Positions 14,644-20,363 of a stretch of DNA of 38,417 bases are shown here, in pieces (the stretch's first letter is position 1; each line of letters opens with the position of its first letter). The stretch spans positions 1 to 38,417 of the forward strand of contig CAMDDO010000026.1 in assembly GCA_945892755.1 (NCBI GenBank), given 5' to 3'. The notes beneath the pieces are model-generated. The model saw only the letters and a list, made by a program, of their open reading frames with translations. It did not search any database and had not been told where the DNA came from. Made by a program: the position numbers and the translations under genes. The stretch comes from Rhizobium sp. Q54 (GTDB lineage Bacteria > Pseudomonadota > Alphaproteobacteria > UBA828).

Positions 14644-16053
14644 ATGACCGGTTTTTCGCCCGCCGCCAAGCGCATGCCTGTATCGTCGCGCGCCATGGCC
14701 GCATATTTCCGCCAAGCCGCCGCCGGGCTGGCGCCCCACATGATGCCGACCCTCAAGCTCGCCGTGCCGGTGGTCATCGCGCGTGCCGGGCTGCTGCTCA
14801 TGCTGGCGGTCGATACCGCCATGCTCGGCCACTACGCGACCGACGAGCTTGCGGGCTTCGCCGCGGCGAACGCGGTCCAGATCGTCATGGTGCTGGTCGC
14901 GGTGGGCTTGCTGCAAGGCACCGCGATTCTGACGGCGCAGGCGGCGGGCGCCGGCGATCGGCGCGCCTGCGGCACCTATTTTCGGGCGAGCCTTGTCGTC
15001 GGGCTGATCGTCGGCCTCGTGCTCGGCCTTCTCTGCGTCGCGGGCGGCTGGTTTCTCTCGCTGCTCGGACAGACTCCCGAGGTCGCCGCGCGTGGCCAAG
15101 CGGTCTTCCTGATGTTCGCGTGGAGCTATCCCGCTCTAGGCCTTTGGATGGCCTGTACCTTCTTTCTCGAGGGCTTGAGCCGGCCTTGGCCGGGCATGAT
15201 CGTCTCGCTGGCCGCGGTCGGCGCGAATGCCCTGCTCGATTGGCTGTTCATCTTCGGTGGTCTTGGCCTGGCGCCGATGGGCGCCGAGGGCGCCGCGATC
15301 GCCACATCGATCGTGCGCTATTTGATGCTGTTCGGACTTGCCGGCTATGTGCTTGCGCTCAAGGATCGCCGTGCGCTCGGATTGTTCGAACGCTCCACGG
15401 AAACCGCGGCGGCGGTGCGCAAATTGTTTCGCATCGGTCTGCCGCTTGCGCTTTCGCGCGCACTCGAGGCCGGCGCGTTCTCGGCGCTCACGCTGATCGC
15501 CGGGCTGCTCGGCGTGGTCGCGCTCGCCGGTTATCAAATCACGCTCAACCTGATTTCGCTCATCTTCATGGCGGCGGTTGGGACCTCGACCGCGACCATG
15601 ATTCGGGTCGGCAACGCCGTCGGCCGGCGCGATGCGCTCAATGCCAGCCGAGCGGGCTGGGCGGGCGTCGCCATCATCGCGGCGGCGGTGGGCGTGGCGG
15701 CGATCGCCTGCCTCGCCGTGCCCGGCGCCTTCGCGGCGCTCTATTCCGACGATCAAACGGTGCGCGCTTTGGCCGCTTCGCTCATCTTCGTCGCCGGCTT
15801 TTTTCTGGTCTTTGACGGCGCCCAGATGGTGCTACAGGGTGCCTTGCGCGGCCTTGCCGACATCTGGATCACCTCGATCATCCAGTTCCTGTCGTGGTGG
15901 GCGGTCAGCGTGCCACTCGGCTACGGCCTGGCCCTAACCGCTGGGCTTGGGCCAGACGGCCTGATCTGGGCGATCTTCGCCGGCGCCATGGTATCGTCAA
16001 CCACGCTTAGCCTGCGTTTTCGAGCGCTCACGAGGCGTAGCGCGGCCCGGTAG
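14644..16053 (+). CDS. MATE family efflux transporter
   Basis: A 469-residue inner-membrane protein with about twelve hydrophobic helices in two similar halves, the plan of Na+- or H+-driven multidrug and toxin extrusion (MATE/DinF/NorM) transporters. Typical segments are VDTAMLGHYATDELAGFAAAN, FLEGLSRPWPGMIVSL and the second-half AGYQITLNLISLIFMAAVGTSTATMIRVGNAVGRRD. The start is uncertain: ATGs at 14644, 14674 and 14695 are all possible and none has a good ribosome binding site; the one at 14695 gives the most typical N terminus. It is divergent from the HugZ-like gene. Substrate unknown. Confidence 0.9.
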   Translation: MTGFSPAAKRMPVSSRAMAAYFRQAAAGLAPHMMPTLKLAVPVVIARAGLLLMLAVDTAMLGHYATDELAGFAAANAVQIVMVLVAVGLLQGTAILTAQAAGAGDRRACGTYFRASLVVGLIVGLVLGLLCVAGGWFLSLLGQTPEVAARGQAVFLMFAWSYPALGLWMACTFFLEGLSRPWPGMIVSLAAVGANALLDWLFIFGGLGLAPMGAEGAAIATSIVRYLMLFGLAGYVLALKDRRALGLFERSTETAAAVRKLFRIGLPLALSRALEAGAFSALTLIAGLLGVVALAGYQITLNLISLIFMAAVGTSTATMIRVGNAVGRRDALNASRAGWAGVAIIAAAVGVAAIACLAVPGAFAALYSDDQTVRALAASLIFVAGFFLVFDGAQMVLQGALRGLADIWITSIIQFLSWWAVSVPLGYGLALTAGLGPDGLIWAIFAGAMVSSTTLSLRFRALTRRSAAR

Positions 16054-16161
16054 GACAAGGGCACGGGTGGCAATTCCGTGGCCTAGGCCCTAGACTTCTA
16101 GTTTGACTGTCGGGACAACCGATTGCCGGGCGCCCAGAGGGGCCGCCCGAGAGCGCGTGCC
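16054..16161. promoter_or_regulatory. chvI upstream region with three inverted repeats
   Basis: Upstream of chvI lie three adjacent inverted repeats: GGCCTAGGCC (16080-16089), CTAGACTTCTAG (16090-16101) and TGTCGGGACA (16108-16117). A TTGACT at 16103-16108 could be a -35 box, but no matching -10 box was found. These may be operator sites. Confidence 0.4.
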
Positions 16162-16869
16162 ATGCCACAGACCATTGCCCTGATCGATGACGACCAAAAC
16201 ATTCTGACCTCGGTCTCGATCGCCCTCGAGGCCGAGGGCTTCGCCGTGCGCGCCTCGAGCGATCCGGAAAAAGGGCTCAAGGATCTCTTGGCGAGGCCCC
16301 CCGACGTCGCGGTGATCGATATCAAGATGCCGCGCCTCGACGGGCTCGAATTATTGCGCCAATTGCGCCGCCATAGTCATTTGCCGGTGATCTTCCTGAC
16401 CTCGAAAATCGAGGAGGCCGACCAGATCGAGGGCCTTCGGCTCGGCGCCGACGATTACATCACCAAGCCGTTCTCGGTGCGCCTGCTGATCGAGCGGATC
16501 AAGACGGTGATTCGGCGCAACGCGGAGGCGCGAAGCGTGGCCGAAAGCGGCGCGCCGGCCGCCGAACCGATGATCGTGCGCGGCGAGCTGGTGCTCGACC
16601 CGACACGCCATCTGGTGACGTGGCGCGGCGAGTCGATCGTGCTGACGGTCACCGAATTTCTGTTGCTCAAATCCCTCGCGCTTCGGCCCGGTCACGTCAA
16701 GAGCCGCGACCAATTGATGGACACCGCCTACGACGGCGAAAGTTTCGTCGACGACCGCACGATCGACAGTCACATCAAACGTATCCGCAAGAAGTTCAAG
16801 AGCGTCGACCCGTCGTTCGCGCAGATCGAGACGCTCTATGGCGTTGGGTACCGTTTCGTCCAGCCCTGA
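16162..16869 (+). CDS. chvI: Response regulator, ChvI type
   Basis: A 235-residue OmpR-family transcription regulator. The receiver domain (about 1-120) has the acidic cluster IDDD, phosphoacceptor D53 in VIDIKMP, T80 and K102 (ITKPFS). The winged-helix output domain (about 135-235) ends in [16 protein letters not shown] and YGVGYRF. Sequence details and the pairing with a ChvG-like kinase near pckA identify it as ChvI, which in alphaproteobacteria responds to acid and envelope stress and controls exopolysaccharide, motility and outer membrane genes. The ATG at 16162 gives the usual N terminus. It overlaps the kinase start by 32 bases, implying coupled translation. Confidence 0.93.
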
Positions 16870-18562
16870 GCGCAGTCGCGCCAGTGGCGGGTCGGCCTTG
16901 AGCCGCCTCGGCCTGCGCGGCAAGGGCAGGCTCGGCGCCGACGCCGATGCGATGGCACGGCCCGGCGCGCAACGAATGCGCCGACCCCTCATTTCGCTTA
17001 CCGCGCGCATCCTCGCCATCAACATGCTGGCGCTCGCGATCTTGCTCGGCGGCTTTTTCTATCTCGACCGCTATCAACGCAGCCTGTTCGATCAGAAGCT
17101 CGCGGCCCTCAAGCTCGAAGGCGGCCTGATCGCAACCGCGCTGACAGCGGAAGGCGGCCTCGATGGCGCCGAACGGCACAGCCGGCGCGGCCGGTTCGAT
17201 GCCGAAGCCCTGCTCAGCCGACTCGATCTGCCGCTCGATCAACGCGTGCGCGTGTATGATACGCGCGGTCGCCTTCTGGTCGATTCGCAGCGTCTGCCGG
17301 GCGCGCGGGTGCAAACCACCGAGCTGCCGCCGCCGGCCAATGAGGGCTTCCTCGGCCGCGTCGCGATCGGCATTTATGACTGGATCGTGCGCGACCTGCC
17401 GCCACGCACGCGCATGCCGCGCATCGTCGAGGGCAAAGGCTCGCGCCAGGTGGCGGCCGCGACGGTAGGCCGCGCGCTGACCGGCGAAACCACCAGCCTG
17501 ATCGGCGAGACCGAAGATGGTTCGCTCGCGGTTCTGGTCGCCCTGCCAATCCAGGCCTTGAAGCGGATCGAAGGTGCGCTGCTTATTTCGGCGAACGCCG
17601 ACGACATCGTGGTCAGCGTGCGCGAAATGAGGTTCGCCGTGCTGGAAGCCTTCGGCATCGCGCTGACCATCACCGTTCTGCTGTCGCTCTATCTCGCCAG
17701 CACGATCACGCGTCCGGTGCGCAAGCTCGCCGAGGCGGCCGCGCGGGTGCGCGATGCGCGCGGCGAGAAACCCGAGATCCCGGATTTCAGTCAGCGGCGC
17801 GATGAGATCGGCGGCCTCTCGAGCGCGCTTAGGGACATGACGGACGCGCTTTGGCACCGGCTCGACGCGATCGAACGCTTCGCCGCCGAAGTCGCCCATG
17901 AAATCCGAAACCCCTTGAGTTCGGTCAGAAGCGCTGTCGAAACCGCAATCCGCATCAGCGACGACGCCAAGCGCCGTCAATTGCTCGAGCTCGTGATCGA
18001 CGACGTCAAGCGGCTGGACCGTCTGCTCAGCGAAATCTCGGCGGCGTCGCGCCTCGATTCGGAATTATCGCGCACCGCGCTCGAGCCGGTCGATCTCGCG
18101 AAATCGCTCGCGCTGCACGTCAGCTTCGACAATGAAATGCACGCCGAGGCGAAAGGTCCGGCGCCGCTGCGCCTCGAAGTTCAAGGCGGCGGGCCGTTCT
18201 TGGTCGCCGCGCTCGAAGACCGGCTGACCCAAGTCGTGCAGAACCTGATCAACAATGCGCGATCATTCAGCCCGCCCGGCGCGAGCGTTACGATCAGGTT
18301 GCTGCGCGAGGGCAGCCTCATCCGGTTCGAGGTCGAGGACGAGGGGTCCGGCGTGCCCGAAGCGATGCGCGAGCGGATCTTCGAGCGTTTCTATTCATCG
18401 CGACCCGAGGGCGAAAAATTCGGCACTCATGCCGGCCTCGGCCTCAGCATTTCACGCCAGATCGTCGAGGCCTTTGGCGGCCGGCTGACCTGCCATGGCG
18501 GACGAACCGGACGCGGCGCGCGGTTCGTGGTGAGCCTTGTCGCCGCGCCGGCCGAAACCTAA
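16838..18562 (+). CDS. chvG: Sensor histidine kinase, ChvG/ExoS type
   Basis: A 574-residue membrane kinase. Order of parts: a Ser/Gly/Arg-rich N-terminal tail (1-50), membrane helix 1 (about 55-75), a periplasmic sensor domain (about 80-265), helix 2 (about 268-288), HAMP (about 289-340), a DHp domain with the phosphorylated H354 in [16 protein letters not shown], and an ATPase domain with [20 protein letters not shown] and [13 protein letters not shown]. The pattern around H354 and [19 protein letters not shown] is that of ChvG, the partner of ChvI. The start at 16838 overlaps chvI; an ATG at 16952 is an alternative that would remove the tail. HprK, often found just downstream in related genomes, is absent here. 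Confidence 0.92.
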
Positions 18563-18566
18563 AGGC

Positions 18567-19604
18567 ATGCAGAGGCGATCGGGCGGGACGCGGTTGTTGT
18601 TGACCGCCGCGACCATCGCTTGGCTGGCGATGCCGGCCCATGCCGAAATCGAAGCGGCGGGGGCGCCGTCCCTCGCCCTTCCGGTCGATTGCACGCTCGG
18701 GCAAACCTGCTTCATTCAGTTCTATGTCGACCTCGCGCCCGGCCCGGAGATTCGAGACCATACCTGCGGTCGACTCACTTATGATGGGCACAAGGGCACC
18801 GATTTCCGCCTGCCCGACTATCCGGCGATGCGCGCCGGTGTCGATGTGCTGGCCGCGGCCGATGGCGTCGTGCGCGCGATTCGCGATGGCGAGCTCGAGG
18901 GCGAGGCGGATGGCCGGAGCGTGGAGCATCTCGAAGGCAAGGATGCCGGCAACGCGGTGGTTCTGGTTCATGCCAATGGCTGGGAAACCCAATACAGCCA
19001 TCTGATGCGCGGCAGCGTCGTGGTGCGACCCGGCGAGCGGGTCAAGACCGGACAGGTGCTCGGCAAGATCGGGCTCTCCGGTCGCAGCAATTTTCCGCAT
19101 CTCGATTTCGCCGTGCGACAGGACGGCAAGGTCATCGATCCATTTCTGGGCGCGAAGCCGGACGCGAACTGCGAAAAGCCAAGCGTCTCTCTATGGAACG
19201 AGGCGGCGCGCGGCGTCATGCCATATCGTCCAAGTGGCGTGCTGCTGGCGGGCTTCGCCGCCGTCGAGCCAAACAAGATCGAGGTCCGCAAAGGCGCCGA
19301 ACGCGCGCTCGCGTTCGACGCCGAAGCGCCGCTGATCGTTTTCTATGCCGATGCTTTTGGCATTCTTGAAGGCGATACCGAAGAGCTAGTTATCTTTGCG
19401 CCCGATGGCAGCCTGTTCGCGCGACATCAGAGCGTATTCTCACGCGATGTTCAGCAGCGCTTCCAATATGTCGGGAGAAAGCGGCCGAGCGAGGGCTGGC
19501 GCCTGGGCACCTATCGCGGCGAATACCGTTTGACGCGGAGCATCGACGGGGCGACGCGCATCGTCGCAAGCACGGCGCGCGAAGCCGTGATCAGTGAACG
19601 CTGA
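18567..19604 (+). CDS. M23 family (LytM-like) peptidase, altered zinc site
   Basis: A 345-residue exported protein. Residues 1-26 form a signal peptide ending AHA. The M23 domain (about 60-195) shows the first zinc motif HKGTD (H75, D79), YSHL with H145, and the third motif, usually HxH, as PHLDF (H178, D180), so the last ligand histidine is replaced by Asp through a CAT-to-GAT difference at 19104. Cysteines near C42, C48 and C67 suggest disulfides. A C-terminal beta-rich domain (about 225-345) follows. The ATG at 18567 lies four bases after chvG, so it is probably in the chvIG operon. It may be an active peptidoglycan endopeptidase with an Asp ligand, or a non-catalytic LytM regulator. Confidence 0.85.
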   Translation: MQRRSGGTRLLLTAATIAWLAMPAHAEIEAAGAPSLALPVDCTLGQTCFIQFYVDLAPGPEIRDHTCGRLTYDGHKGTDFRLPDYPAMRAGVDVLAAADGVVRAIRDGELEGEADGRSVEHLEGKDAGNAVVLVHANGWETQYSHLMRGSVVVRPGERVKTGQVLGKIGLSGRSNFPHLDFAVRQDGKVIDPFLGAKPDANCEKPSVSLWNEAARGVMPYRPSGVLLAGFAAVEPNKIEVRKGAERALAFDAEAPLIVFYADAFGILEGDTEELVIFAPDGSLFARHQSVFSRDVQQRFQYVGRKRPSEGWRLGTYRGEYRLTRSIDGATRIVASTAREAVISER

Positions 19605-19812
19605 CCGGGTCGAGGTCGTGCTGGCGCGCGGCGGCAAAGGCCAGGGCGCGGCTGGGCGCGATGCCGAGCATGCGCCCGTCCGCGCCGTGAATGGCGAAGC
19701 CGTCGCTGCCGTCGACCGCACTCGGTTTGATATAGGCCAACGTGGGTGCGCCCAGCGCCCGAAACGCCTCGACGGCCAATGAGGGTTGAATTTCCTTCAT
19801 AACTGCTTTCAT
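19591..19812 (-). CDS. DUF1150 family protein
   Basis: A 73-residue protein of unknown function, recognised as DUF1150 by LGAPTLAYIKP, DGFAIHGADGRMLGIA and the ending ALAFAAARQHDLDPVSVH. In alphaproteobacteria this family is usually encoded directly after a small heat-shock protein gene, as here. Only two bases separate the Hsp20 stop from its ATG, so the two are co-transcribed. An internal ATG at 19800 is an alternative start. Its 3' end overlaps the convergent M23 peptidase gene by 14 bases. Confidence 0.9.
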   Translation of the reverse strand: MKAVMKEIQPSLAVEAFRALGAPTLAYIKPSAVDGSDGFAIHGADGRMLGIAPSRALAFAAARQHDLDPVSVH

Positions 19813-19814
19813 GG

Positions 19815-20363
19815 TCAGGTGCTCCGCTCGCGCGCCGACGCTCCGACAACGCGCCGCGCGGATGCATTTTTCTCGGATCTCTCTGAATTAGCCGGAGGCT
19901 CATGCCGCGCAGGGCCGACGACGCGCGCCCCCTGCGCACCATTCGCGCTCGCTTTCGCGATCGGAATCGTGCGCACCTGTTCCGCCGCCATGGGGCGGGT
20001 GAGATCGACATTGAGCAGACCGTTCTCAAGCGTCGCGCCACCGACTTCGATGCCGTCCGCAAGCAGGAACGTGCGATGGAACTGGCGCGCCGCGATGCCG
20101 CGGTAGAGATAGGTCGCGCCGGAATCGGCCGCTTCAGACTTGACGCTCCGGATGTGGAGTTGGTTGCCCTCGACGGTAACGCTGAGTTCGGTTTCGGCAA
20201 ATCCCGCGACCGCCAGCGTGATACGCATGCGGTTGTCATCGAGCTGCAAGATGTTGTACGGCGGGTAGCCGTCCCCGGCGCTCTTGGCCAGACGATCGAG
20301 CATGCGCTCGAGCTGGTCGAAACCGAGCATGAGCGGACTATTGAACGGCGAAACCCTGGTCAT
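19815..20363 (-). CDS. Small heat-shock protein, Hsp20 family (IbpA-like)
   Basis: A 182-residue cytosolic holdase chaperone. The N-terminal MTRVSPFNSPLMLGFDQLERML and the alpha-crystallin domain (about 35-140), with YNILQLDDNRMRITLAVAGF, GNQLHIRSVK and LENGLLNVDLTRP, match the IbpA group. After the domain comes an unusually long tail (about 145-182) rich in Ala, Arg, Ser and Glu, longer than in IbpA itself, although the common C-terminal IxI-type motif may be RTIPIAK. GAGGAGGGG about eight bases before the ATG is a strong ribosome binding site. A sigma-32-type promoter lies upstream. The gene forms an operon with DUF1150. Confidence 0.92.
   Translation of the reverse strand: MTRVSPFNSPLMLGFDQLERMLDRLAKSAGDGYPPYNILQLDDNRMRITLAVAGFAETELSVTVEGNQLHIRSVKSEAADSGATYLYRGIAARQFHRTFLLADGIEVGGATLENGLLNVDLTRPMAAEQVRTIPIAKASANGAQGARVVGPARHEPPANSERSEKNASARRVVGASARERST

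Follow-up and report, generated by a model that had tools for sequence, protein, structure and literature searches.

An M23 peptidase with a putative carboxylate third metal ligand, encoded beside chvG in a family of Alphaproteobacteria

The question raised by the locus studied here is what an M23 peptidase becomes when the last histidine of its metal site is replaced by aspartate. In the published scheme for this family, the metal is held by both residues of the HxxxD motif and by the last residue of HxH, and the remaining two His handle the water (PMC9662197, PMC5053510). LytM domains are commonly classed as active or degenerate according to whether HxxxD and HxH are complete (PMC8416486). 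We analyzed a stretch of 38,417 nucleotides from Rhizobium sp. Q54 (contig CAMDDO010000026.1; hereafter, the window), in which one M23 protein, read against the published ligand scheme, carries Asp at a ligand position. The relevant features, all on the plus strand, are as follows:

16162-16869, plus strand: chvI-like response regulator gene with OmpR-type domains; start codon uncertain
16838-18562, plus strand: chvG-like sensor histidine kinase gene (Pfam Sensor_TM1, Stimulus_sens_1, HAMP, HisKA, HATPase_c); start codon uncertain
18567-19604, plus strand: gene for an M23 (LytM-type) peptidase of 345 aa whose presumed third metal ligand is Asp
18567-18644, plus strand: probable N-terminal signal peptide, residues 1-26, with an Arg pair, a hydrophobic run and AHA-E, judged by eye
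18789-18803, plus strand: HxxxD motif with presumed metal ligands H75 and D79, in YDGHKGTDF
18945-18947, plus strand: A127, a position with Cys in 152 of 197 aligned rows
18996-19001, plus strand: S144 and presumed catalytic H145, in YSHL; position 144 is Cys in 153 of 197 rows
19098-19106, plus strand: HLD in FPHLDF, with H178 (presumed catalytic) and D180 replacing the third ligand His
19230-19601, plus strand: C-terminal Ig-like beta-sandwich domain, residues 222-345

Translation of the gene bears out two points of a preliminary description of this DNA: the third motif reads HLD, with HxxxD and the catalytic His intact, and the gene follows chvG after four bases, the chvG stop ending at 18562 and the ATG lying at 18567. 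The protein matches Pfam Peptidase_M23 (PF01551) with 71.7 bits against a gathering cut-off of 28.7, and it carries the HxxxD of the canonical M23 zinc peptidase signature together with H178-L-D180 in place of HxH. As judged by homology, it is a member of M23 outside the canonical signature. The AlphaFold model has a mean pLDDT of 90.5 (about 50 in the signal-peptide stretch), and its residues from about 30 to 215 match M23 chains including DipM, ShyA and Csd3 with Z up to 16.5 (DipM: Z 16.5, rmsd 4.7, 139 aligned; Csd3: Z 16.3, rmsd 2.0, 123 aligned). The window protein thus has in common with the M23 family (LytM, lysostaphin, ShyA, MepM, Csd3, Pgp3) the fold, HxxxD and both presumed catalytic His, but differs in its putative Asp third ligand and in a C-terminal Ig-like domain of ~125 residues. 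That domain has no Pfam match in the window protein; when 45 of its members were compared with Pfam, nine families matched one member each, with a best E of 0.028. Its structural matches, at Z of about 9, are to domains of RbmA, GbpA, GH2 and Wzt, that is, to a common sandwich.

How position 180 varies among homologs carries most of the argument. A profile built from 51 sequences, with a threshold of E up to 1e-40, found matches in 82 of 385 genomes of the class and 43 of 398 of the phylum, two samples that overlap; the first set of relatives, the best 80 of 524, favours close and rhodobacterial relatives. Loci were included as alignment rows if they scored >150 bits against the profile (214 of 238 pass), which, with the window added and 18 duplicates removed, left 197 distinct rows. 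Position 180 is His in 167 of these, Glu in 12, Asp in 10, Tyr in three, Gln in two, and Ser, Ala or a gap in one each. In the 187 rows that keep H75, D79, H145 and H178, it is His in 165, Asp in 10, Glu in 10 and Gln in two. All four other residues are kept in 20 of the 22 Asp or Glu rows (the exceptions being L160, which has D75, and L116, whose row does not cover 75 and 79), versus none of the five Tyr, Ser or Ala rows (L208, L196, L222, L225 and L223), each of which has lost at least one other residue, in L196 H75 alone. The 10 rows outside the 187 are these five together with L209 (N75 with H180), L160 and the incomplete L116, L237 and L177. Across this alignment, an otherwise intact site appears to accept only His, a carboxylate or Gln, other replacements accompanying further loss, and it is because intact sites are limited in this way that we argue, first and foremost, that the Asp and Glu sites may still bind metal. 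Gln stands at the third ligand, with the four other residues intact, in L101 and L218; L218 groups with the Glu row L216 on a branch that is not starred, and would fit a path from His through Gln to Glu. In L160 (genome G049), D75, D79 and E180 possibly form an all-carboxylate site.

The comparison of homologs points toward a functional variant, not a dead enzyme, and the window protein is probably an M23 endopeptidase that has a predicted carboxylate third ligand and is active or, at a minimum, binds metal. We read D180 as a putative carboxylate metal ligand in a site under selection, and not as the mark of an activator of the EnvC/NlpD type. The protein would be exported to the periplasm and act there as a peptidoglycan endopeptidase, its metal held by H75, D79 and D180 instead of a third-ligand His, the attacking water oriented by H145 and H178, and enzyme or substrate positioned by the Ig-like domain. 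The zincins (Glu-, Met- and Asp-zincins) offer a parallel, their third zinc ligand being described as variously Glu, His or Asp (PMC3890501). They differ in having an HExxH motif and belong to another clan, so that the likeness is one of analogy, not kinship. Two published observations count against metal binding: Csd2, which combines Glu in place of the first His with a Lys change, is described as metal-free (PMC5053510), and substituted LytM domains in crystals are described as lacking zinc (PMC8416486). Our searches of the open-licence PMC literature turned up no M23 protein with Asp or Glu at the third ligand that had been described, solved or assayed, which does not imply that none is in print.

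The carboxylates do not trace to one event. A careful tree of 70 rows, with seven trait columns removed, comprised 21 Asp or Glu rows, 19 chosen neighbours and 30 random rows; short or broken rows (L116, L237, L177, L221 and L236) were omitted from all trees, and L222, L225 and L223 from this one also. Asp or Glu versus the rest requires 11 changes on this tree, and a single clade for all 21 rows is rejected (p-AU 3.5e-6). On starred branches, the Glu row L137 falls with its His relative L139, and the Glu row L147 with L149 and L150. However, the Asp rows plus L004 as one lineage give p 0.35, and because a single origin of Asp is thereby not rejected, we claim repeated origin for Asp and Glu jointly only. 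Deep branching in these trees is poorly resolved, so they do not set a count of events.

Selection on these genes was gauged from dN/dS (NG86), which is 0.16-0.40 among four Azospirillum Asp genes (6 pairs), 0.22-0.23 among three Glu genes (3 pairs) and 0.32 between the window gene and L003, where dS is 1.2 and near saturation; two His-type trios (6 pairs) give 0.10-0.19. Asp and Glu genes thus appear constrained, somewhat more weakly than the sampled His genes, and purifying selection by itself is no demonstration of catalysis. A pseudogene was considered and rejected, given an uninterrupted frame and the purifying selection seen in those relatives that were tested.

A second difference lies near the site. 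Positions 127 and 144 (18945-18947 and 18996-18998) are both Cys in most relatives, possibly forming a disulfide beside the catalytic His. All 10 Asp rows have A127 and S144, with Cys at neither position, and the pair is missing from 16 of the 22 Asp or Glu rows. We do not claim a functional link between the carboxylates and loss of the pair, because six Glu rows keep both Cys; a test of independent pairs had only four pairs on starred branches and was without power.

The strongest competing explanation, which we consider unlikely though not negligibly so, is that the protein is a catalytically dead regulator of the LytM type that uses its groove to activate an amidase or some other hydrolase, with D180 a step in the loss of the metal site. 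Many M23 proteins have turned into regulators (PMC9662197, PMC8416486), and the zinc-free crystals of substituted LytM domains (PMC8416486) fit this explanation also. The degenerate LytM factors EnvC and NlpD/DipM have their fold in common with the window protein, but EnvC and NlpD are described as losing at least two of the signature residues (PMC8416486), of which the window protein keeps four of five. More specifically, NlpD has NxxxD and (K/X)xH, and EnvC keeps no signature residue, so that the window pattern fits neither the NlpD (NxxxD, KxH) nor the EnvC consensus given in that source (PMC8416486). Loss of several signature residues, by which proteins of the EnvC/NlpD type may be known, is not seen here. 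Of the two outcomes offered by the preliminary description for an Asp ligand, retained activity is the one favoured by the 20 Asp or Glu rows with the other four residues in place, and a LytM-like regulator is disfavoured.

The complement of cell-wall genes in the window's genome (G000; 3.27 Mb, completeness 100) speaks to both readings. It encodes three M23 proteins including the window protein, and the other two, the DipM/NlpD-like L239 (HAYQY at the five positions) and the EnvC-like L240 (ASGQY), have thoroughly degenerate sites. Thus, two degenerate M23 proteins are already present, which argues against the window protein being a further regulator, although the one Amidase_3 protein in G000 is a possible partner for it. 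By sequence, the window protein is the only M23 protein found in G000 with a near-complete site; the assembly consists of 117 contigs, and a gene may have been missed by it. Besides Amidase_3, the peptidoglycan genes include one M15_2 (MepK type), and searches of G000 for NlpC/P60 and S13 gave no match; among the families searched, recognised murein endopeptidases are few. In five relatives from the same GTDB family (G002, G007, G010, G014 and G018), a canonical M23 protein occurs in addition to the Asp or Glu protein (L274, L275, L278, L281 and L284). The Asp or Glu protein need not be the working endopeptidase there, a point in favor of the regulator.

Other M23 proteins provide a baseline, which is not a random one. 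We took 70 M23 domains from other alphaproteobacterial proteins (30 top loci and 40 hand-picked among the matches listed), passing over the window's own subfamily. The five positions read HDHHH in 44 domains, HDHHD in four and HDHHY in one, with further losses in 21. The HDHHY domain, L300, combines Tyr at the third ligand with all four remaining residues in place, which means that keeping those four is no proof of a metal site. A group with the motif HLDW and the four other residues intact (L277, L279, L282, L285, L297, L302, L304 and L305) consists of four baseline domains of the 70, from four other families, and four members in relatives of the window's family. Its members have the same H, D, H, H and D as the window protein but belong to a different subfamily. 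The nearest PDB sequence to L302, 2hsi, has His at the third ligand, so the replacement in this group is apparently a parallel one.

If the site is active, the metal might be another: with a ligand set of H75, D79 and D180, that is, one His and two carboxylates, manganese, iron or cobalt could be preferred over zinc. We regard this as improbable. Carriers of the exchange include Azospirillum and Quisquiliibacterium as well as marine bins, and so do not point to a single metal-poor niche. Some M23 enzymes do use Co(II), and LytU is described as gaining activity with it (PMC9662197), but the Asp-zincins are described as zinc enzymes (PMC3890501). The weakest explanation, which puts D180 down to faulty sequencing or assembly or to a neutral private change, has next to no probability: codon 180 is GAT (19104-19106), a single base from CAT for His, but Asp or Glu stands there in five other assemblies of the family, which excludes an error at 19104, and the exchange recurs beyond the family.

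These copies come from a search of 21 genomes of the window's GTDB family, seven of which have the gene. Six copies are full length, with Asp in the window, G002, G007, G010 and G018 and Glu in G014, encoded by GAT, GAC or GAG; the copy in G003 (L010) is a fragment that ends before the HLD motif, at a contig end. The alignment proposed in the preliminary description to see whether Asp is conserved therefore returns a carboxylate in every copy from the family that reaches the position, and the outcome that would have undone its reading, HLH in all close relatives together with an error at 19104, did not materialize, since none of the five other full-length copies has His.

The chromosomal setting is equally constant within the family. 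chvG adjoins the M23 gene in all seven gene-bearing genomes (the window, G002, G007, G010, G014, G018 and G003), the two genes overlapping or lying up to a few tens of bases apart according to which start codon is taken (four in the window, seven in L003). No chvG match >50 bits was found beside the other 79 full-length loci of the first set, in a search that covered 88 full-length loci of that set plus L010, with flanks mostly up to 6 kb and some much shorter. Upstream, chvI is present in the window, as it is in L032, L033 and L034, the three relatives with longer flanks. The best NCBIfam match of the chvG-like protein is ChvG of Caulobacter, at 390.5 bits, below the equivalog cut-off of 740. 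For its partner, no ChvI-specific model is among the best 25 matches listed, and the name chvI is used because of the chvG neighbour.

In many alphaproteobacteria, hprK adjoins chvG; the window's family has the M23 gene there, and a match to Hpr_kinase_C in G000 lies on another contig (G000:C1:54897-55118, L328). A convergent Hsp20 gene (19815-20363, minus strand in the window) lies downstream of the M23 gene both here and in several relatives from the family. Hsp20 also stands beside three His-type relatives (L049, L077 and L009) with no chvG nearby, so its pairing with the M23 gene may predate that with chvG.

Adjacency to chvG in 7/7 family genomes makes control of the M23 gene by ChvGI plausible. 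A scan of 16000-19850 was uninformative, with three promoter-like sites (0.4 expected), each of them on the minus strand, and five sites resembling terminators (3.0 expected). In Agrobacterium, cell-wall stress is reported to activate ChvG-ChvI, and endopeptidase transcripts to rise when ChvG-ChvI is activated (PMC9731437). On this model, the M23 gene would be co-transcribed with chvG, and its product would help to remodel or repair the cell wall once ChvGI senses wall stress. A broader and more speculative proposal, which we hold to be rather doubtful as a whole, is that the metal site of M23 has evolved much as that of the zincins did, lineages having repeatedly switched from two His and one carboxylate to one His and two carboxylates while staying catalytic, and that in this family the chvIG locus took in the switched enzyme, perhaps along with a shift in metal or pH preference suiting wall repair under stress.

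Should carboxylate third ligands prove functional, some LytM proteins now called "degenerate" are misassigned, and the natural exchange of His for Asp or Glu gives a ready-made set of variants with which to test how peptidoglycan hydrolases choose their metal. For the organisms themselves, the conserved chvIG-M23 arrangement would give a candidate effector of the envelope-stress system in one family of Alphaproteobacteria.
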